Source of the DNA: a virus
Reading direction: 5' to 3' (one strand)
Virus record (IMG/VR): IMGVR_UViG_3300027418_000041
Span: 1 to 27,337 of that record
DNA: 27,337 nucleotides
The first letter of the stretch is position 1; each line of letters starts with the position of its first letter. The translations under genes and the position numbers were made by a program. Below the pieces are notes generated by a model. It searched no databases, was not told the DNA's origin, and was given only the letters and a program-made list of their open reading frames with translations. Positions 377 to 26,395 of the stretch are shown here, piece by piece.

Positions 377-3300
377 TTATTTGTTCTCTAATTTTTGGAT
401 ACGCTCCGATAACTCCTTAACCGTTTGCAAAAGTAAGACCGACAGTCTCGTGTAGTTTAGTGACTCAGGCTGTCCCTCGTCATTGTAATGTACAACCTCA
501 GGGAATAGTTCTGCTACCTCTTCGGCAATCAAACCAATCTCTTGAGTTTGAGTTCCTATCTTATTATATCGTACAGGACGAAGTGCATAAACCTTATCTG
601 TTACAGGCTCAAGGTCAACGATGTTTTCCTTGTAACGTCTTGCCGATGTCTCTGAGAATGTTCCTTGTACCTCTACATCGTATTGGAAAGTAACGCTTCC
701 TGCTGCGATGATTTGTGGGTCAGGAGAAGATGTGCTCCAGTAGTTTGCGGTTGCGTGGTTACCCCAGCCGTAGGCTGTGTTCCAGTTTGTAGAGTTACCT
801 CCCGTGGCTGTAATTACACCGTTTACTTGGAGCGCAGTAGATGGACTCGTAGTACCAATACCAACTCTTGCTGAACCCTGAGTAGCAGAAGCATCTGTGT
901 CAATAGTAACTACAGAATGTGAAAGGCTGGTGGCAGAAGCGCTACTTATATTATTCAGCAAGAAATGTATCCTACCCGAAGCATTGCCACCTTGTCCGTG
1001 ATTATCGGTTCTTTCAAAAACAATTGCTGACTTTTTATATGCGTCATTATTATATGTTGTCTCAGAATAACCAAAATGAATTCCAGCAAAATCTCCAGTA
1101 CCGATTGGCCCTCCAAATGACGCTACAATTTTACTACCGTTTACGTCTAGCTTTTTCTGTGGGGTCGTAGTACCAATACCTACGTTATTAGAATCTCCTC
1201 TAAGCGTTATTCCGGTACCCTGTCTTGTACTAAGTGCAATACCATAGTACCCGACCATACCAAATGCACTCTCTCCGCCAAATGTAGCGGCTGAGAATTT
1301 TAAGTATCCGTGAACAGCATAATTTTGGTCTAAGTTAATTTGGTTACCACTATCTACAGTTATTGACCCAGTAGTTCTAAGTGAACCACCAACGTCTAGT
1401 TTGTAAGAAGGGCTAGTAGTACCGATACCTACATTTCCAGTGCTACCCGCAATGCGAACGCTTTGAAAGAAACTTGTTCCATTGTGACTCCAGAAATCTA
1501 TTCCTTGGGCAGAGCCACCAGCGCCCGATGCAATACCAAGACCCACACCACTTTGATGGAATATCCCATAGTCAACTGTTGGGATTGAGCCTGCTATTCC
1601 AATTTTTATAGAGTCACCGTGAAATGATGGCGCTCTAAAAGATGTTGGTGCATAAACATATCCTGACTCACCGTAGTAAATCTGCAATGCTTGATAGTTT
1701 CCAGCACCAGCGTTTGTATGTGTGTTAAATGTATAAGCTAATCCATTTGTTCCCTGTACTGATGACCAAGCACGAGAGAAGAATGTCATAGTGGTGTAGT
1801 CGTTCGTCTGGTAGTGCGAACCATAGTTTGTTATTCCATCCGGAACATTGTATCCACCACCAAGGCCTAGTTGAAGTGATGTGCTAGCACCTCTAGCAGT
1901 AACCGTAGCTAATGTGTCAGACTCCCCAGTAATAAAGCCGTAGTTCTCTACATCCTGAATAGATGCCATCTGAGCAAGGTCAACACTATTACCATTGCTG
2001 ATAGTAAGAGTTTTTTCTCCTTGACTCCAGTCAAGTGTTTGTGAGTCTGTCTCTGAGGTGAGATAGCCTTGAGCTTGAACCCAAGATTCAGTAGCAATGT
2101 TATTACTATTATGCTTTAACTTACTGCTAGAAAGGAATGCAATACCATCGTCAGCATCATTCTCTGATGAAATAACAAGCACAGAGCCAGCGTGACCCCC
2201 AGTATTTGTGGTGTGCTGAATGTAGGCTCTATCGCTAAAATCAGTAGTTCCTTCTTTATCAAAACCAGTAAAGTCAATAGTTCTTGCCTGATTGCTAGTA
2301 GTAGCTGTTCCAGTCAAGAAAATATTTCCGTGGATATATGTATTGTCGTAAGATGTAATTCCGCCATTTACATAAAGGTGACCAAGGGCGTTAGTATTTG
2401 CTGCAAGCGTATTGTCTACCTCCTCAATCTTGAATCCAGAAAACTCAGCAGTGCCATCGTGGCCTTCATATAGATAGTTAAGAAGAACACCAACTTGAGC
2501 ATAACGTGTATCGGAAGCCCAAGTATACTGCGCACCGCTTCCCGAAGGGCCAATGTTCATTGTGTACTCGGTCCATTCTGTTGGTGGCACACCAGACCAA
2601 AAGTAAGGATTACCCCAGCCTCCGTTGTTATTTTGTACTAAGTCGTAGTTGGCTTGAGTAAGTGAAGCATAACAATAAGGATTTCCTTCTACTGACCTAA
2701 ACCAAACAGAAATCCTATATGTTTTAGTAATATCTACAGGAGTCCAACCTCTTTGTCTAACACCTTGCCAAGCACCATTGTTTCTAATTGCAGTACTACC
2801 AATAGGAGCATCACTTAGTCCAGTTATATAATCAAGACCGGGCCAAGTGTTACCACCATCAGCGTGATGCCAGTTTCTTGTTAGATACTTACCATCAGCA
2901 GTCCAAGAACCAAAAATTGTAGCACCATAACCATCATTTATGCTTGAAGTATTTGCACGGAGGAATGACGTATATGTTGTGCCGTCTACGTGAAGCTTGT
3001 GTAATGGATTGGTAGTCCCAACACCTAAATTACCGTTAGAAGCCCATACACCTTTATAGAAACCGTTACCTTCAATATAATGAGCACCACTAGCTCTAAA
3101 ATAAGCATTAGGTGTACTATCGTATGCTATGTAGTTACTTGTATTAACAAAGTATAAAGTGCTATTTGAACCATTATCAATAAACGCAGTTCCAGCAACG
3201 TGAAGCTTTTGAGATGGACTAGTAGTGCCAATGCCTACGTTGCCTCCTAATGGGTTGATTGATATTGGGTATGTAGCAAGAGTAGCATTGAAGTACGATG

Positions 3301-6300
3301 ATTGCATATAGACAGTCGAGTTTGTCAACTGTCCTATAAACAAAGAGTCACCTCCCCCACCAAGTAGATTTATTTGCGACTGAGGACGCAAATCCGTTGC
3401 CGTTAATGAAGCAGCACGAACGTCAGTTGCTACTGTAAATGGACTACTTGGACTAGTAGTACCAATACCTACGTTGCCGTTTCGTAATATATCTAAATAT
3501 CCATTGTTAAAACTCTCGTTCCATAATCTAAATAAATACGTGCTATCCGAACCAATGTATGTTACGTTCCCACTTCCAGAACGTGAAAAACCAAATTGTG
3601 CGGACGCACCTTGTCCTTCAAATACCGGGTAATTGTTTACATTTTTTATCGGGCTATTTATTGCATTTGCAAGTATTGTGTCACCGGTTGATGTTAAAGA
3701 ACCAACCACGTGTAATTTATAATCCGGTGTTGTAGTACCAATACCTACGTTACCGGATGCATTAAGTGTAAAAGTTTCAGCACCTACAGAATATTGATAC
3801 CATCTGAATGAACCGTCCAGCTGATGGTTTAAGTGAATGCCCTTTGCGGGGTCATTATTAGTTATTAAAGCTATAGTAGCAAGACTTCCAGAACTTGTAA
3901 GCCCAAGAGTTGCACGGCTACCTGCTATTTTAAGTATGGGACTTCCAAAAGCATAATCAGAAAAGTCCGTAGTACCAATGCCTACGTTGCCGCCTCCAGT
4001 AAATAGCACATTCCCACTACTATTGGCATTAAGGTATAAATCAGCTGCACCATTAGAAGAATTAAAAGCTGCTACCTGATTAGAAGAAAGTCTTAAATAG
4101 CTATCATCTCCGGTATATGTAATTCTGGCTCCCCAACCAATACCACTTCTAATATGAAGAAAGTCTGAAGGACTTTGAGTATTAATGCCTACGTTGCCTC
4201 CGCTAGTGATGCGAACTTTTTCAGCGCCATCGGCTTCAAATGCGATACCATCATTACCATATAACTTCAGCGTAGAAGAATCCCTGTAAATCTGAGCATT
4301 AGAGTCATAGAACCATAATCTTGTGGCTGATTCTAATACAAACCTATTACTTTGACCGTAAGCACTACCATTTACATACCCATTTACAAAAAGTGAATTA
4401 CCTGTATTTCCTCCATCTACGTGAAGTTTATAACTTGGACTAGTAGTACCAATACCAAAATTTCCTGAGTTTAGATATGAATCAGCGCCATTGTATCCAA
4501 CTCTAAAGTAAACGGCTCCAGCATCATTAGTTGCCTCGTTTGTTGTGAACTCCCAACCCCAGCCTCTTGCGTGGTCACTAGTTGTGATTCTATTACTTAG
4601 ATATCCAGTTTGCGCTGCATTAAATACAGTGAATCCAGATATCTGTGAACTACCAGCAATCAGCCTTAGGTATCCGTTATTCTGAATGGTTGCTTCACCA
4701 TTGATTACAATGTTTCCATTCGTAGTAGCACCTCTAGCGGTAACCGTAGCCAATGTATCTGACTCAGCAGTAATGAAACCAGCGTCCTCAATGTCAGAGA
4801 CGGAAGCCATTTGGCTTAGGTCTACCGTATTGCCGTTGCTAATGGTAAGCAGTTTCTCTGCTTGATTCCACTCAAGTTCTTGTGAGTCTGTCTCTGAGGT
4901 TAGGTATCCTTGAGCTGCTACCCATACTCTAGTTGCAAGTACATCACCATTCCAGGTTGCGTTTCCAGAAGTTGAAAGACGAACTTCTTTTCCAGAGTCT
5001 CCTTGTACTTGAAGAACTGAATCGTTTGTGTGAATACCGCCTATAATAGTACCGCTACGATATGCAGCTAATGCCCATACACCCTCAGCAGCGTTTACTG
5101 AAAATCTTTCATTGCTTGCTGGTATTATACCAATACCAAAGTTTCCACCTGCTGTAAATCTTGCTACCTCAGTATTATTTGTAGTAAATCCAAAAAAGTG
5201 GTTTGTTTGTGTTCCAATATAACCGCCTGTACCATCAGAATAAAAGTGGGATTTAACACTTGCTCCATTATTTGCTGTGTAAACTATTCCACCGCCTCCA
5301 GTTGACTTTCCTTGAACTTCAAGGGTAGTCCAAGCTGCACCAACTGCTTGAGGACTATCAGTACCAATGCCTACGTTGCCGTCTTTCCAAAATGTAGAAT
5401 AATGTGTGCCATCGTATAGACGTAAATAGTTTCCATTTGATGTAGAGAGCTTCTGAAAAAAAGCATAAGTACCGGAATCAGGCTGAAGAATAAGCAGTGG
5501 GTCTGCTCCTCCAGCTCTTATATTTCCATATACATCTAGTTTATATGTTGGATTAGTAGTACCAATACCTACGTTACCTGTTCCTCCTTGTGCAGCAATA
5601 TGCATATAAACGCTTCCATTGCTGCGACCAAACTGAATATTTGGAACAGCCCCACCAATGTTACCATCATAGTCACCGCCAATAAGGAAATTATTATAGG
5701 TTGGGTATCTGAATGCCATATATCCAGACTGACCAGAAACAAAGTCATTGTTAAACTCTACACGTCCACCAAATTCAATTGGGTTTCCGTTGTTGTCTAC
5801 TTTGTTTGATGGTCTTTTAACTCTAATGTTAGAGTCTGTAGAGTTTCCTCTTGTTACAACAGTATCTAACGTATCAGACTCGGCAGTCAAGTAACTACCC
5901 TGCGCTTGGAATGGTAAAGCAGAAAGGTCTACTGATTCGTTGTACGCATTCCCTTCACCACTAAATACAAGGCTTGTGTCTACAACCCTTACATCTGAGA
6001 TATAGTTGTTCTCGTATGATGTTAGATATCCTGCTGATGCGTGGTTACCCCATCCGTAGGCTGTGTCCCAGTTGGAAGAACTTCCAGTGGTTGTTGATAT
6101 AGTACCGCCAACGCTAAGGCTTCCGCTAAATCCACCATTTTGAGTATATACACCCTCTCCCCCGACCGAAACAATTTCAATAGGGATGTCTTCTGCTTCG
6201 GATGATGATGCTAAAAGTTCTGAACCTGCAGATACTCTAAATACTTCAGACAGTGCCGTATACCCAAGAAGCTCTTGATAATAACAGGCTATTTGGTGTT

Positions 6301-7354
6301 CAGTTGATGAAAGGTCAGCAAACAGAGCCTCAATATAATAGTCCTCATTACCTCCATCTGGGACTTGAATTATACGAACAGCGGTTATGTAGTTTGCTTG
6401 TCCGTATTTTTCTACTTTGATACTAGCATCGCTAGACCAGTTTTTATATGCGTCAATTACAAATGTGTGTGGACTATTGCTCCCTCCGGTATACGATATA
6501 GCAATTCTAGCACCTCCACGGGCTATTTTCGCAAGCCTATACCAGCCTCCAGACGGAGGAACTGTTCTACTGACATTTTCGTAACTAACAAATCTATTGT
6601 CGGACTCGGTCTCAGTATAATATCTATCATCGTGGTCGTGAGATGGAAGAGATGTAAGGTACCCTTGCTGACCCACCCAAGTCTCCGTAGCGTAGCCCGT
6701 AAGGTCTGTAGTGACCGTCTGCCAAGTGCCATCAGCACGCAAGAACTTTCCAGTATCATCAAAACCCGAAGCAGGAACAAAACCGTTAGAGCCGGGAATA
6801 ATAACCTCATCGCCACCAACGACCTCAGAAGTCGCCTGAGTGAATACATTGTGCGTGTGGGAAGTAAGAGAATAGAGACCTGCGTGGTTACCCCACCCGT
6901 AAGCCGTGTCCCAGTTGCTTGAGTTGTTAATAGTGGTATACCAAGACGAACCCGTATAAATAGGGTCAGACTCCGTATAAGAGGTTAAGAAGTTCGGAGA
7001 CCAGTTAACCCAAGCACTTCCGTTCCAAGACAGCAACTGACCTACAGCCGTTGTGCCGATTGTTACATCACCAAGAGCGCCAATAGACGATGCGCTATTT
7101 AAAAACGATGGGGTCTTGTTATACCACACATTAACACCGGGGTCTCCACCAATGGGCTGACCATAAGCTAAAATCTGGTCTGCGGTTGGATTTGTGATAA
7201 CGACATCACTTAGTGCGTCAAGGCTGCCAATGGTGGCCGTGTCTAAGTAGTCAGTACCCGCAACGGCTTTTACAATCTTTCCGTCTGCGTCTACCTTCAG
7301 GATTCCAGAAGATAGCGTGCTTAATGTAATATCGCTAAAAAACTTTTGTGACAT
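377..7354 (-). CDS. Giant tail fibre with C-terminal S74 intramolecular chaperone
   Basis: This 2325-residue protein is the largest in the window. Its last 90 residues match the Peptidase_S74 family: a Ser-Ala-Arg-Arg-Tyr-Lys-Glu-Asn-Ile start (Ser about 2237, Lys about 2242), a conserved IAEEV segment and a C-terminal heptad-like helix. In that family the domain drives trimerisation of beta-helical fibres and then cuts itself off using a Ser/Lys dyad. The body carries 13 copies of a GNVGIGTTSPSYKLHVDG-like repeat, three of an NWDTAYGWGNHA motif and a duplicated module of about 55 residues. The N-terminal part is presumed to attach to the virion. A terminator and a TAnnTTTG box precede the gene. 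It is most likely the main host-recognition fibre. Confidence 0.9.
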   Translation of the reverse strand: MSQKFFSDITLSTLSSGILKVDADGKIVKAVAGTDYLDTATIGSLDALSDVVITNPTADQILAYGQPIGGDPGVNVWYNKTPSFLNSASSIGALGDVTIGTTAVGQLLSWNGSAWVNWSPNFLTSYTESDPIYTGSSWYTTINNSSNWDTAYGWGNHAGLYSLTSHTHNVFTQATSEVVGGDEVIIPGSNGFVPASGFDDTGKFLRADGTWQTVTTDLTGYATETWVGQQGYLTSLPSHDHDDRYYTETESDNRFVSYENVSRTVPPSGGWYRLAKIARGGARIAISYTGGSNSPHTFVIDAYKNWSSDASIKVEKYGQANYITAVRIIQVPDGGNEDYYIEALFADLSSTEHQIACYYQELLGYTALSEVFRVSAGSELLASSSEAEDIPIEIVSVGGEGVYTQNGGFSGSLSVGGTISTTTGSSSNWDTAYGWGNHASAGYLTSYENNYISDVRVVDTSLVFSGEGNAYNESVDLSALPFQAQGSYLTAESDTLDTVVTRGNSTDSNIRVKRPSNKVDNNGNPIEFGGRVEFNNDFVSGQSGYMAFRYPTYNNFLIGGDYDGNIGGAVPNIQFGRSNGSVYMHIAAQGGTGNVGIGTTNPTYKLDVYGNIRAGGADPLLILQPDSGTYAFFQKLSTSNGNYLRLYDGTHYSTFWKDGNVGIGTDSPQAVGAAWTTLEVQGKSTGGGGIVYTANNGASVKSHFYSDGTGGYIGTQTNHFFGFTTNNTEVARFTAGGNFGIGIIPASNERFSVNAAEGVWALAAYRSGTIIGGIHTNDSVLQVQGDSGKEVRLSTSGNATWNGDVLATRVWVAAQGYLTSETDSQELEWNQAEKLLTISNGNTVDLSQMASVSDIEDAGFITAESDTLATVTARGATTNGNIVINGEATIQNNGYLRLIAGSSQISGFTVFNAAQTGYLSNRITTSDHARGWGWEFTTNEATNDAGAVYFRVGYNGADSYLNSGNFGIGTTSPSYKLHVDGGNTGNSLFVNGYVNGSAYGQSNRFVLESATRLWFYDSNAQIYRDSSTLKLYGNDGIAFEADGAEKVRITSGGNVGINTQSPSDFLHIRSGIGWGARITYTGDDSYLRLSSNQVAAFNSSNGAADLYLNANSSGNVLFTGGGNVGIGTTDFSDYAFGSPILKIAGSRATLGLTSSGSLATIALITNNDPAKGIHLNHQLDGSFRWYQYSVGAETFTLNASGNVGIGTTTPDYKLHVVGSLTSTGDTILANAINSPIKNVNNYPVFEGQGASAQFGFSRSGSGNVTYIGSDSTYLFRLWNESFNNGYLDILRNGNVGIGTTSPSSPFTVATDVRAASLTATDLRPQSQINLLGGGGDSLFIGQLTNSTVYMQSSYFNATLATYPISINPLGGNVGIGTTSPSQKLHVAGTAFIDNGSNSTLYFVNTSNYIAYDSTPNAYFRASGAHYIEGNGFYKGVWASNGNLGVGTTNPLHKLHVDGTTYTSFLRANTSSINDGYGATIFGSWTADGKYLTRNWHHADGGNTWPGLDYITGLSDAPIGSTAIRNNGAWQGVRQRGWTPVDITKTYRISVWFRSVEGNPYCYASLTQANYDLVQNNNGGWGNPYFWSGVPPTEWTEYTMNIGPSGSGAQYTWASDTRYAQVGVLLNYLYEGHDGTAEFSGFKIEEVDNTLAANTNALGHLYVNGGITSYDNTYIHGNIFLTGTATTSNQARTIDFTGFDKEGTTDFSDRAYIQHTTNTGGHAGSVLVISSENDADDGIAFLSSSKLKHNSNNIATESWVQAQGYLTSETDSQTLDWSQGEKTLTISNGNSVDLAQMASIQDVENYGFITGESDTLATVTARGASTSLQLGLGGGYNVPDGITNYGSHYQTNDYTTMTFFSRAWSSVQGTNGLAYTFNTHTNAGAGNYQALQIYYGESGYVYAPTSFRAPSFHGDSIKIGIAGSIPTVDYGIFHQSGVGLGIASGAGGSAQGIDFWSHNGTSFFQSVRIAGSTGNVGIGTTSPSYKLDVGGSLRTTGSITVDSGNQINLDQNYAVHGYLKFSAATFGGESAFGMVGYYGIALSTRQGTGITLRGDSNNVGIGTTTPQKKLDVNGSKIVASFGGPIGTGDFAGIHFGYSETTYNNDAYKKSAIVFERTDNHGQGGNASGRIHFLLNNISSASATSLSHSVVTIDTDASATQGSARVGIGTTSPSTALQVNGVITATGGNSTNWNTAYGWGNHATANYWSTSSPDPQIIAAGSVTFQYDVEVQGTFSETSARRYKENIVDLEPVTDKVYALRPVRYNKIGTQTQEIGLIAEEVAELFPEVVHYNDEGQPESLNYTRLSVLLLQTVKELSERIQKLENK
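1913..2074 (-). repeat. Fibre-internal module, copy 1
   Basis: Within the giant fibre gene this segment encodes a module running from YLTSETDSQ through TISNGNSVDLAQMAS to GESDTLATVTARG. A second copy lies at about 4752-4917. Protein identity is high, while the DNA differs mainly at third positions. This suggests an older duplication kept under protein-level selection. It probably marks the joint between two beta-helical blocks of the fibre (inference). Confidence 0.7.
4752..4917 (-). repeat. Fibre-internal module, copy 2
   Basis: This is the second copy of the module at 1913-2074. It runs from YLTSETDSQ through TISNGNTVDLSQMAS to AESDTLATVTARG. A shorter, diverged relative (ESDTLDTVVTRG) lies further towards the N-terminus, near 5825-5885. 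Together these divide the fibre into blocks, each holding several GNVGIGTTSP repeats. Confidence 0.65.
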
Positions 7355-18407: not shown

Positions 18408-18411
18408 CCAC

Positions 18412-18442
18412 TTGATTTTATCAAAAAAAAGCACTAACTTTG
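18412..18442 (+). promoter_or_regulatory. Promoter of the pseudoknot RNA
   Basis: TTG at 18412-18414 is followed after 20 nt by TAACTTTG (18435-18442), an exact match to the TAnnTTTG -7 consensus. The predicted start near 18447 coincides with the first base of the GTGAC strand that closes the downstream RNA fold. The promoter starts 4 nt after the stop of the preceding gene. Confidence 0.8.
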
Positions 18443-18446
18443 CTAA

Positions 18447-18557
18447 GTGACAAAGAAACAATGTCCACATCTGGACACCACTCGTCTCTAAAACCATATC
18501 AAAGCAGCGGAAAAGCGGAGGCTCCCAAAGCCCTCCGCCACGAGGGAGCTGCGTCAC
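18447..18557 (+). ncRNA. Compact structured RNA with H-type pseudoknot
   Basis: The fold can be read directly. GTGAC (18447-18451) closes with GTCAC (18553-18557). Inside lies a perfect 6-bp hairpin TGTCCA/TGGACA (18462-18477, loop CATC). A second branch is closed by GCAGC (18504-18508)/GCTGC (18548-18552), which abuts the closing stem and could stack on it. Within that branch GCGGAGG (18515-18521) pairs with CCTCCGC (18532-18538), and its loop bases CTCCC (18522-18526) can pair with GGGAG (18544-18548), an H-type pseudoknot (one base is shared with the outer stem). There is no ORF. The promoter places the 5' end at the closing stem. Function unknown: it may be a discrete small RNA or the 5' domain of a longer one. 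Confidence 0.75.
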
Positions 18558-18943
18558 ATAAAGACGATTAAATCACCGTTACACAATCTGGGATAGCTAT
18601 ACTCAAAAACGATGTTATAGCTGTTCCGGGGTTATTATTGCTATACAGTCACTTACACAGCTTATACGCTTGAAAAATGTTAGGTGTTACTCGTATAGTG
18701 GGGATTCTACGTTATAAAATCCAATACGAAACACAAACCGAAATGGGATTGTAGACCCATGCCCCCCTCCGAAAATCGATTTGATTGGAAACTTTTTGGC
18801 TTTTTTGGAGCGGACTAGTTTCTCCTACTAGTTTGGTAGGATATCCTTCTTAAAGCGGATGTTGACCCGATGACCGAACTCGTTCCGAAAACGAGAAACA
18901 AGTAGAGGAGCAACAAACCCCCGGCATACCCGCCTTAGGTATC
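18558..18943 (+). ncRNA. Non-coding stretch with successive strong hairpins
   Basis: No credible ORF. Helices visible on the + strand include a 15-bp uninterrupted stem 18587-18601/18616-18630 with several G-U pairs; a three-part 15-bp stem GTGTT-CGTAT-GGATT (18684-18706) with AATCC, ATACG and AACAC (18718-18734); ATGGG/CCCAT (18743-18760); and CTCCGAAAA/TTTTTGGAG (18767-18775/18802-18810). Further on are competing hairpins at 18814-18841, CTCGTT/AACGAG (18879-18895) and ATACC/GGTAT (18926-18942). The G-U pairs favour a + strand RNA over a DNA-level structure. It may be the continuation of the transcript from 18447. No clear terminator is visible. Confidence 0.6.
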
Positions 18944-19103
18944 TTGGTTCCCCCTGATTACATTACCTCCCCAACTCTTGCCCCGGCTGAGAGCGATGAT
19001 GCTCCGCCATTATTGTTACCCGCGCGCGAGGATTCTCAGGTTGTGGTAAATGAAATTTTTCTCTCTCATTATCAGCGAGTTACAAATTATTTTATACAAA
19101 CAC
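18944..19103 (+). other. Remainder of the gene-free region before the large RNA
   Basis: A short frame can be opened here from a TTG, but it runs through the next promoter and has no supporting features, so I do not call a gene. One small hairpin is visible: GGC..GAGC pairing with GCTC.GCC around 18984-19007. The 3' half becomes A/T-rich towards the promoter at 19104. Confidence 0.5.
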
Positions 19104-19135
19104 TTGACAAAGGGTATTTGAGTTTTATAACTTAG
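19104..19135 (+). promoter_or_regulatory. Promoter of the large structured RNA
   Basis: TTGACA (19104-19109) and TAACTTAG (19128-19135) are separated by 21 nt from TTG to box. TAACTTAG is 7 of 8 to TAnnTTTG and identical to the -7 box at 24342-24349. The predicted start at about 19138-19141 coincides with the first paired base of the RNA. Confidence 0.8.
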
Positions 19136-19137
19136 CA

Positions 19138-19613
19138 GAGCCAACCACCGGAAGACGTGCCACCGAGTACGTAGGTTGGGCTCCCGAGGCAACGAGACAC
19201 GAAAGGAGCAAAGGTCTTTGAAATACGACTCTGAGGAAAGTAACTAAGGAGTGGCTGATGGTAACCGAGAGGAGTACCGAAGCAGAACGAGGTGTCGAGT
19301 GCTAGTGTGTCTAGCGAATGATGCCGGGAAGATGAGTGGCTCAGGTCACCGATGCTGAGGGAAAGGTAGGGGAAGCGGTTGCGAGTTAGAGTGAGTACTT
19401 AGAGTTTAAGCGGTTCGGACTAAGAGGCGGAATTGAAAAGTCTATTGGTAAGTTGACATAGCAGAGAGTAGGGCATAGATACACTATGGTACCTGATGGT
19501 AGTGAGTCAATGAGATAGAAAGAGTAGGTAAACGCCCGAGGTGGAAAAACTGACATAAAAGCGACAAAGGAGGTGGTGATGACACGTAAAGGGGTTCGTG
19601 ACCCCTCACCTCC
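19138..19613 (+). ncRNA. Large structured non-coding RNA candidate (about 476 nt)
   Basis: The sequence is purine-rich, has stops in all frames and contains at least ten helices. H1: GAGCC-AACC (19138-19146) with GGTTGGGCTC (19174-19183). H2: 19194-19198/19214-19218. H3: ACTCT/GGAGT (19228-19232/19248-19252). H4: GCT..GGTA/TACC..AGC (19254-19283). H5: GGTGTC/GATGCC plus TGCTAG/CTAGCG (19291-19325). H6: CTCAG/CTGAG plus inner pairs (19340-19359). H7: CTTAG/CTAAG (19398-19424). H8: TCTATT/GATAGA plus GTTGAC/GTCAAT (19441-19519) enclosing CATAG/CTATG (19474-19488). H9: GGAGGTG..GGGGT/ACCCC.CACCTCC (19569-19613), closing the 3' end. Several G-U pairs fix the + orientation. It resembles in style the large phage RNAs ROOL and GOLLD, but I do not recognise it as either. 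Confidence 0.75.
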
Positions 19614-19640
19614 ACTAGTTTAACTTAAATCCATCATCCT

Positions 19641-19841
19641 ATGGTATTTATCCCTGCAAAAGAGTCGGACTACTTGAAATTGTCTTGTACGACTCGCAAG
19701 AGCGGTTCCCGTTCTTCTCGTGGTGCTGCTCACTTCGCTATCGAGCGTGGTTTATCAGTAGCCAAAAAGAAAGTTGCTGAAATCCTCCCACGTATTACTG
19801 AGGAGTATAGCAACACCCGTTTAGTTTATGTGTGTAAGTAA
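19641..19841 (+). CDS. Unknown basic small protein (66 aa)
   Basis: The product (start MVFIPAKESDYLKLSCTTRK) is basic and Ser/Arg-rich at the front, then a helix (SVAKKKVAEILPRITEEY). No family recognised. It starts 28 nt after the last helix of the large RNA, behind a TTTAACTTAAATCC leader, so it may be translated from read-through of that transcript. Confidence 0.55.
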   Translation: MVFIPAKESDYLKLSCTTRKSGSRSSRGAAHFAIERGLSVAKKKVAEILPRITEEYSNTRLVYVCK

Positions 19842-20767: not shown

Positions 20768-21670
20768 ATGGAAATCAATGAATTCGGTCAATTAGTTGAC
20801 ACTCACAACTCTCTAGTTTCAGCACGTACAACGGCTCAGTTGCTAGATAATTTCGGCCTCAATTGGGTCGTAGAGAAACAACCACTACTCTTGCCCTCAG
20901 GTAGCAAGAGCGGTCTATTCGGTATCGTTCGCAAGGACACGGATACGTGCTTCACTTCGGCCTCTGAGCAGTATGAGGTGTTCCAAAACGATGAACTAGC
21001 AGACCTTGTTCAGGAGGTAGGCCACGTTATGGGTGTAGACGTCGCCAAGGGAGGTATGTTCAACGGAGGAGGCAAGGTGTTCTTGCAACTACCTTTTTCT
21101 GACAAGCAGATTGGTGGCGATACTATCAAGCGTTACGCTACTGCGCTGAACTCACACGACGGAACAACGGCTCTGAAGTGGGGTGCTACCAACGTGACTA
21201 TCTCGTGTGCTAACACGTTCAATGCCGCGTCCAAATCAATGGAGAATAGCGTACGTCACTACAAGAATATGCGCCAAGCCGTTGAGGCTTCTCTACGTGC
21301 CGTCAAGGGTATCCAAGAGCAAGATGAGACGTTGTTTGAGCGGTTCTCTCGTATGGCTGACAAGAAGGCTACGCCTAGCGATGTTAAGCGTGTCATTCAG
21401 GCTGTGACAGGTGTAGATGTAGCGATGAGTGTTAAGGAGGCAGAGAACGCCTACTCTACACGTCTACGTAACCAAGCGCAAGACCTGACCACGTCTATCA
21501 CTCGTGAGATGTCTTACAAGGGTGACAATTTATGGGGCTTGTTCTCAGGTGTGACTCACTACACGACTCACAAAGCCGGGCGTGTAAATAGCCGAGAGGT
21601 ATCCAAGATGGCGGGTGCCTTGCAGAAGACTGACCAAAAGGTCTTCGACCTAGTTGATGCTCTAGTATAA
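20768..21670 (+). CDS. DUF932-family phage/plasmid-like protein
   Basis: The 300-residue protein matches the DUF932 (TIGR03299) pattern: N-terminal ARTTAQLLDNFGLNWVVEKQ, FGIVRKDTDTCFTSASEQYEVFQNDE (about 50-77), GGKVFLQLPF (about 100) and a central ALNSHDGTTALKWG followed by ISCANTF (about 127-152). A helical C-terminal half follows, with YSTRLRNQAQDLTTSITREM and a LWGLFSGVTHYTTHK segment. The family is widespread on phages and plasmids and has no firmly known biochemical role; a link to DNA metabolism or plasmid maintenance is often assumed. Length is usual. Codon choice looks more GC-rich than in its neighbours. A tRNA-like minihelix follows 7 nt after its stop. Confidence 0.85.
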   Translation: MEINEFGQLVDTHNSLVSARTTAQLLDNFGLNWVVEKQPLLLPSGSKSGLFGIVRKDTDTCFTSASEQYEVFQNDELADLVQEVGHVMGVDVAKGGMFNGGGKVFLQLPFSDKQIGGDTIKRYATALNSHDGTTALKWGATNVTISCANTFNAASKSMENSVRHYKNMRQAVEASLRAVKGIQEQDETLFERFSRMADKKATPSDVKRVIQAVTGVDVAMSVKEAENAYSTRLRNQAQDLTTSITREMSYKGDNLWGLFSGVTHYTTHKAGRVNSREVSKMAGALQKTDQKVFDLVDALV

Positions 21671-21677
21671 GCATCGA

Positions 21678-21720
21678 AGGGGAATGGTTCAAGAGGGGGG
21701 TTCGACTCCCCCCTCCCCTA
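21678..21720 (+). ncRNA. tRNA-like acceptor/T-arm minihelix
   Basis: AGGGGA (21678-21683) pairs with TCCCCT (21714-21719). Immediately inside, GGGGGG (21695-21700) pairs with CCCCCC (21708-21713) around the loop TTCGACT (21701-21707), exactly a T loop. The two stems abut on the 3' side, giving a 12-bp stack as in a tRNA acceptor/T half. A720 would be the discriminator, and the next bases CTA match those after the real tRNA-Arg in this window. D and anticodon arms are replaced by an 11-nt connector. Such minihelices are known substrates of RNase P and tRNase Z, so it may be an mRNA processing site. Alternatives: a tRNA remnant or attachment-site fragment. Confidence 0.65.
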
Positions 21721-26305: not shown

Positions 26306-26378
26306 GCCCTTGTAGCTCAATGGATAGAGCAACGCACTTCTAATGCGTAGGCTGCTGGTTCGAGTCCAGCCGAGGGTA
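26306..26378 (+). tRNA. tRNA-Arg (anticodon TCT)
   Basis: A complete cloverleaf: acceptor GCCCTTG/CGAGGGT (G-U at the first pair, U-G at the sixth), D stem GCTC/GAGC with an AATGGATA loop, anticodon stem ACGCA/TGCGT with loop CTTCTAA (anticodon TCT), variable AGGCT, T stem GCTGG/CCAGC with loop TTCGAGT, discriminator A. CCA is not encoded (CTA follows), so host nucleotidyltransferase would add it. It reads AGA codons. Confidence 0.95.
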
Positions 26379-26395
26379 CTAGGAGAGGTAGTTTG

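Follow-up and report, generated by a model that had tools for sequence, protein, structure and literature searches.

The non-coding RNA at 19138–19613 of the window (the whole stretch of viral DNA analysed, 27,337 nt) most likely serves as the leader of an early operon, and not as a free-standing RNA that forms particles. With moderate confidence, we read the sequence as a structured 5′ leader resembling that of an rRNA (rrn) operon, in which tRNA mimics would act as processing punctuation for RNase P and RNase Z. The most constant part of the leader is a 3′ tRNA-like module (TLS1) that had gone unrecognised in the initial annotation. The features concerned are listed below; L numbers are our labels for related loci.

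19053–19083 (+): upstream element AAATTTTTCTC..T.ATT.TCA, conserved in L008, L009, L053, L011 and L006
19104–19135 (+): promoter of the Bacteroidota TTG / TAnnTTTG type, TTGACA at 19104–19109 and TAACTTAG at 19128–19135; read from the sequence, conserved in relatives
19138–19617 (+): non-coding structured leader including the 3′ tRNA-like structure and ACTA flank; no ORF, position-conserved leaders in relatives, blocks in common with L153
19138–19183 (+): 5′ hairpin GAGCCAACC / GGUUGGGCUC; its CCAACC/GGUUGG stem is also found at L153 2427–2464
19213–19224 (+): boxA-like GGTCTTTGAAAT, also in the leaders of L153, L105/L126 and L151/L152
19291–19325 (+): two-part stem; equal plan with changed helices at L153 2579–2609 (read from the sequence)
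19441–19519 (+): two-part stem, outer arm paired in L153
19569–19613 (+): TLS1, tRNA-like element with no anticodon arm, followed by ACTA; identified by covariation among eight TLS1 sequences, a sub-threshold tmRNA match and a scan control
19641–19841 (+): first early gene, 66 aa; the leaders of L079, L011, L153, L154 and others are followed by homologues
20768–21670 (+): DUF932 protein gene (PF06067, E 2e-26)
21678–21719 (+): TLS2, a second anticodon-less mimic, followed by ACTA; found by the mimic scan, with equivalents in L153, L079 and L011 at other gene boundaries
26306–26379 (+): genuine tRNA-Arg (TCT) with 3′ flank ACTAGG and no encoded CCA (ARAGORN; Rfam tRNA, 72.4 bits)

Relatives of the window

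The 27-kb virus record that makes up the window is a fragment; its relatives are all metagenomic, none cultured; searches for related stretches may omit records close to the window's own genome. Its terminase belongs to phrog_6681, by which 135 related IMG/VR stretches were found. Among the named relatives are Flavobacterium phage elemo and Cellulophaga phi38:1, with identities below 60%. The 66-aa first early gene, for which neither Pfam nor PHROG gave a match, was used as a query and led to the further loci L079/L148, L153, L151/L152 and L154/L155. The closest relative of the RNA is L153, whose leader has blocks such as AGGCAACGAGACAC, TCTTTGAAATA, GGTACYTGATGGTAG and GAAAAACYGACATAAA in common with that of the window.

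Comparison of the RNA itself with phage records by blastn gave no match, and the L153 RNA gave only a 29-nt match to Microbacterium phages, probably to a tRNA-type 3′ end. The exact 3′-end pattern of the leader had no match in IMG/VR, and a protein search there with the DUF932 gene confirmed no relative. In the stretches read of MW202828, Flavobacterium phage elemoF and Cellulophaga phage phi38:1 there was no clear mimic, only genuine tRNAs and a small number of sites that are weak or doubtful, so that these records yielded no isolate for experiments. L158, picked up by a pattern match, was rejected as a leader relative, as its sequence reads as coding DNA, and matches to the pattern GGAGCGCCTTGGCGCAT were mostly unrelated, apart from the L079/L142 and L011/L086 lineages.

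A non-coding leader behind a Bacteroidota-type promoter

Relatives in IMG/VR carry a non-coding leader of ~235–595 nt (~480 in the window) in the same position: a Bacteroidota-type promoter precedes it, and it ends 20–40 nt before the first early gene. The initial annotation had placed a promoter just upstream of the RNA, and this is borne out: TTGACA and TAACTTAG lie there, the latter one mismatch from the Bacteroidota TAnnTTTG element, and the region, common to L008, L009, L053, L011 and L006, is the best-conserved DNA around the RNA. The promoters of L053 and L011 have the exact TACGTTTG. A strict sigma-70 scan left the leader promoter unflagged; transcription starts are those inferred from the promoters. 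The RNA is purine-rich, as had been noted (64% purine), and is free of ORFs of at least 60 aa on both strands. No terminator-like site was found between the leader and the gene at 19641.

The element upstream of the promoter occurs at 42 distinct viral sites in Bacteroidota phage contigs (the window plus L087–L139), and at 14 of these a TAnnTTTG follows within 130 nt, against a background of 6%. None of 26 Flavobacterium genomes has a site of this type; it is possibly a phage-specific promoter element. Further upstream, between a 165-aa gene and the promoter, ~640 nt (18408–19052) are without a convincing gene and contain terminator-like hairpins. L008 and L079 also have a long non-coding stretch at this place, a possible origin or transcription boundary.

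Within the leader, a boxA-like TCTTTGAAAT/TCTTTCACAT is found in four lineages. The pattern [CG]NTCTTT[GC]ANAT, present in four leaders, has 18 sites per 1.23 Mb strand searched (0.0018 per 120 nt), and the resulting enrichment is somewhat inflated because the pattern was set after the leaders had been seen. In Flavobacterium 16S leaders, ACACGTTC[AC]TAGACATATTG comes after a TAnnTTTG promoter; L105 carries ACACGTTCTTTGAAATGTTGG. The match to rRNA leaders is suggestive only, because other lineages (leaders of the L008, L011, L053, L079 and L154 types) have no clear copy. For the rrn antitermination complex of E. coli, boxA has been described as necessary and sufficient (PMC10250234). Like rRNA operon leaders and lambdoid nut sites, the phage leader has a strong promoter, after which come a boxA-like sequence and untranslated RNA with structure (PMC10250234), but phage early genes lie downstream and boxA was seen in some lineages only; no boxB or N-like protein was identified for it.

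A fast-changing leader body

The folding energy of the RNA is ordinary. Its minimum free energy was −131 compared with −126 ± 5 for shuffled sequences (z −0.97), and 15 of 100 shuffles were equally good; a second run gave z −0.85 for the window and −0.15 to −3.8 for relatives. An energy equal to that of shuffles, here z about −0.9, had been named in the initial annotation as evidence against a structured RNA, and the case for structure therefore rests on the comparison of relatives. What stands of the proposed large structured RNA with its own promoter is a non-coding RNA that has relatives with covarying stems and no Rfam match; unusual stability is no part of it.

Three of the stems described initially are supported. 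The stem at 19291–19325 has the same layout at L153 2579–2609 with another inner stem (GCUAG/CUAGC versus GGGAGG/CCCUCC; read from the sequence). In the outer arm of that at 19441–19519, all six pairs are kept in L153, five of them changed on both sides, and the closing stem at 19569–19613 is real, forming the acceptor and T-arm of the tRNA-like structure. The full count of at least ten helices is not established, because many other predicted helices are not kept in the sequence alignment with L153.

L008, L009, L053 and L011 form a separate subtype, with double changes in 33 of 133 predicted pairs among the four sequences and a three-way junction around a CUUG loop, which can also be read in L079. 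L079 and L154 in turn have a common 5′ hairpin with ACAUAAGAAGGCCGA, the closing stem of which is fully changed (GAGUCA/UGACUC and CGAACA/UGUUCG). The body thus varies strongly in sequence and length and differs by subtype, and we therefore regard these RNAs as a mosaic family of fast-changing leaders and not as one ornate fold.

This bears on the earlier suggestion of an RNA cage. GOLLD and ROOL are large phage-encoded non-coding RNAs of unknown function with a tRNA nearby (PMC12286853), and the size, phage context and several stems of the leader, together with a tRNA nearby, recall them. An independent ornate RNA that forms multimers as they do is nevertheless very unlikely: the leader is smaller, its folding energy is ordinary, its body is not conserved in sequence or length, and its constant part is the 3′ tRNA mimic. 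The covariance models of GOLLD (RF02032) and ROOL (RF03087) gave no match, even at E ≤ 10, when run on the window and on L008, L011, L153 and L154. No Rfam family matched the leader RNA at the gathering score.

A tRNA mimic at the leader 3′ end

Eight distinct leader sequences end in a TLS1-type mimic. It consists of 11–12 stacked pairs, from acceptor and T-arm, closed by a 7-nt loop (TTCGNNN), and of a D-like part that is a short hairpin or loop; there is no anticodon arm. In the window, the acceptor is GGAGGTG/CACCTCC, the T-arm AGGGG-TTCGTGA-CCCCT and the D-like part GTGATGACAC. The acceptors differ between lineages: GGAGGUG/CACCUCC (window), GGGGCG/CGCCCC (L153), GGGGGCG/CGCCCUC (L008, L053, L011), GGUGGCG/CGUCACC (L079), GCCACAC/GUGUGGC (L151) and GGGUGAG/CUCACCC (L154). 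Across the eight elements 97.5% of cells were paired, compared with 69% for shuffles (maximum 81%; none of 2000 reached the observed value), and for 15 elements together 98.7% compared with 62% (maximum 72%); the counts come from a hand-set alignment of 10 core pairs and, since the shuffles ignore relatedness, serve as support and not as a probability. A mimic scan of reversed sequences from all loci (~1.8 Mb) gave 0–2 distinct matches per loop class, whereas in the real sequences it picked up the mimics along with a set of genuine tRNAs and some sites that are doubtful. With ~12 stacked pairs, a 7-nt T-type loop and covariation, the element has a tRNA-like acceptor and T-arm. It is no tRNA, having neither an anticodon arm nor a full cloverleaf; ARAGORN detected only the tRNA-Arg in the window and no tRNA in L008, L009, L053, L011, L006, L079 or L151–L155. 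At T-loop position 58, most TLS1 copies carry a base other than A.

The Rfam tmRNA model (RF00023) scored 18.6 bits, below its cut-off of 47, and covered only 19572–19617, aligning the acceptor and T-arm. The tRNA-like domain of tmRNA, itself an RNase P-processed RNA, likewise has an acceptor and T-arm, a reduced D part and no anticodon arm. The mimic differs in that it has no tag ORF and no G3-U70, its 5′ acceptor strand adjoining the T-arm at the RNA 3′ end. G3-U70 is absent from all 15 elements, where pair 3 is A-T, G-C, T-A or C-G. The weak tmRNA similarity and missing anticodon arm would also fit functionless remnants of decayed tRNA or tmRNA genes. We consider this highly improbable, because decay would not preserve pairing, and the elements show compensatory changes across lineages at a constant position.

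Two other readings of the mimic were rejected. An attP site was dismissed, as the element has both strands of the acceptor and occurs more than once in the genome; a PreQ1-like match in L153 (23.3 bits, cut-off 39) lies on the TLS T-arm and was put down to chance. Other Bacteroidota phages have similarly built but doubtful tRNA-like elements, at L101 10418 and L118 11381(−), which may be decayed tRNAs. At L105 1785–2140 (with an equivalent in L126), a same-position leader, which has a boxA-like sequence and resembles L151 in its 5′ domain, ends in a plain CCCCTC-TTCG-GAGGGG hairpin with no tRNA mimic.

Mimics at other gene boundaries

TLS2 (AGGGGA..TCCCCT; T-arm GGGGGG-TTCGACT-CCCCCC) begins 7 nt past the DUF932 stop codon, ahead of the next gene. 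Its equivalents in the L153, L079/L148 and L011/L086 lineages each follow a different upstream gene, 7–9 nt after the stop; the range over all lineages is 7–13 nt. In the window, L153, L079 and L011 lineages, elements of this type, which were chosen partly by pairing, have linkers with TGGT (10–11 nt in the last three) and loops TTCGACT/TTCGATT, the features that a tRNA elbow needs. Further mimics are present in L014, L037 and the L154 record. A mascRNA match at TLS2 was sub-threshold (12.1 bits, cut-off 42.5). The mimics encode no CCA, and an encoded CCA is favoured by bacterial RNase P. The ACTA flank follows TLS1, TLS2 and most other mimics, and is also found behind several CCA-less phage tRNA genes, including that for tRNA-Arg. 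The mimic thus recurs with the gene boundary and not with one gene, which suggests a processing mark.

The elements lie immediately behind stop codons and ahead of first genes and form GC-rich 12-bp stacks, which would also suit hairpins that act in cis and stay uncut by RNase P and RNase Z, stabilising the mRNA or tuning translation as an exonuclease barrier or a binding site for a tRNA-binding protein. We hold this to be unlikely: a plain hairpin would suffice, and nothing in this reading accounts for a T-loop of tRNA type, a D-like loop or the 3′ flank of a tRNA. Still less probable is action in trans, with a stable RNA (the mimics or the leader) occupying RNase P, tRNA-modifying enzymes or defence enzymes of the infected host. 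The strong promoter, several mimics per genome and large structured body would fit such a role, but the mimics sit at gene borders inside the operon. With no anticodon arm they would not be decoys for anticodon nucleases, and the absence of G3-U70 from the 15 elements argues against a tmRNA-like alanine identity.

A possible processing scheme for the early operon

Sequence comparison shows the region in the order promoter, leader start (boxA-like in some lineages), fast-changing structured body, 3′ mimic and first early gene, with a second mimic after a later early gene. On the reading as an rrn-like leader punctuated by mimics, host RNase P would cut on the 5′ side of each mimic and RNase Z on the 3′ side, as for the phage's own CCA-less tRNA, separating the leader from the early mRNA and splitting the polycistronic message at chosen gene boundaries. 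We infer such cutting because the features kept (the acceptor and T stack, T-type loop and flank) are those of tRNA, and RNase P processes pre-tmRNA, phage M3 RNA and C4 RNA (PMC11143913). More weakly, the boxA-like element might recruit NusB-S10 of the host and, by boxA-driven antitermination, keep polymerase from stopping within the long leader, which is untranslated.

We lean towards this scheme on the strength of the leaders at the same place, TLS1 covariation, the scan control, TLS2 after the stops of different genes, the ACTA flank, boxA and the finding of no terminator-like site. T-loop position 58 being mostly other than A in TLS1, the mimic-free L105/L126 leader, the leader types with no clear boxA, the lack of CCA and the use of pairing in choosing TLS2 count against it and keep our preference a measured one. 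A bolder version, which we put forward tentatively, is that the early operon of this phage clade might be a counterfeit stable-RNA operon, with an rrn-type promoter and boxA, a leader, and mimics as intergenic scissors for RNase P and RNase Z.

M3 RNA, antisense C4 RNA and an RNase P-cut polycistronic mRNA are likewise non-tRNA phage or operon RNAs with a tRNA-like fold as the presumed RNase P site (PMC11143913). The present case differs from these in that its anticodon-less mimics are repeated, covary, and lie at gene borders within the early operon of a Bacteroidota phage. If correct, the scheme would add an undescribed structured-RNA family and an undescribed mode of mRNA processing, in which minimal tRNA mimics serve phages as portable signals for cleavage and so set RNA ends in polycistronic transcripts. 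It would be a bacterial-virus version of tRNA punctuation. In mitochondrial tRNA punctuation and at the 3′ end of MALAT1/mascRNA, cutting by RNase P and RNase Z at tRNAs or tRNA-like elements defines RNA ends; those systems are eukaryotic or organellar. The role of tRNAs as cleavage signals in polycistronic transcripts is known in organelles, and we know of no description in the literature of such a role for tRNA mimics in tailed phages. The mimics would also offer minimal substrates of natural origin for the RNase P of Bacteroidota, and the family a fast-evolving phage RNA with a conserved part that structure reveals when searching by sequence fails.

Elsewhere in the window, a 2325-aa ORF (377–7354) with repeated VGIGTTxPxxKL segments is tail-fibre or spike-like, and its C-terminus, judged by eye, resembles the intramolecular chaperone type.
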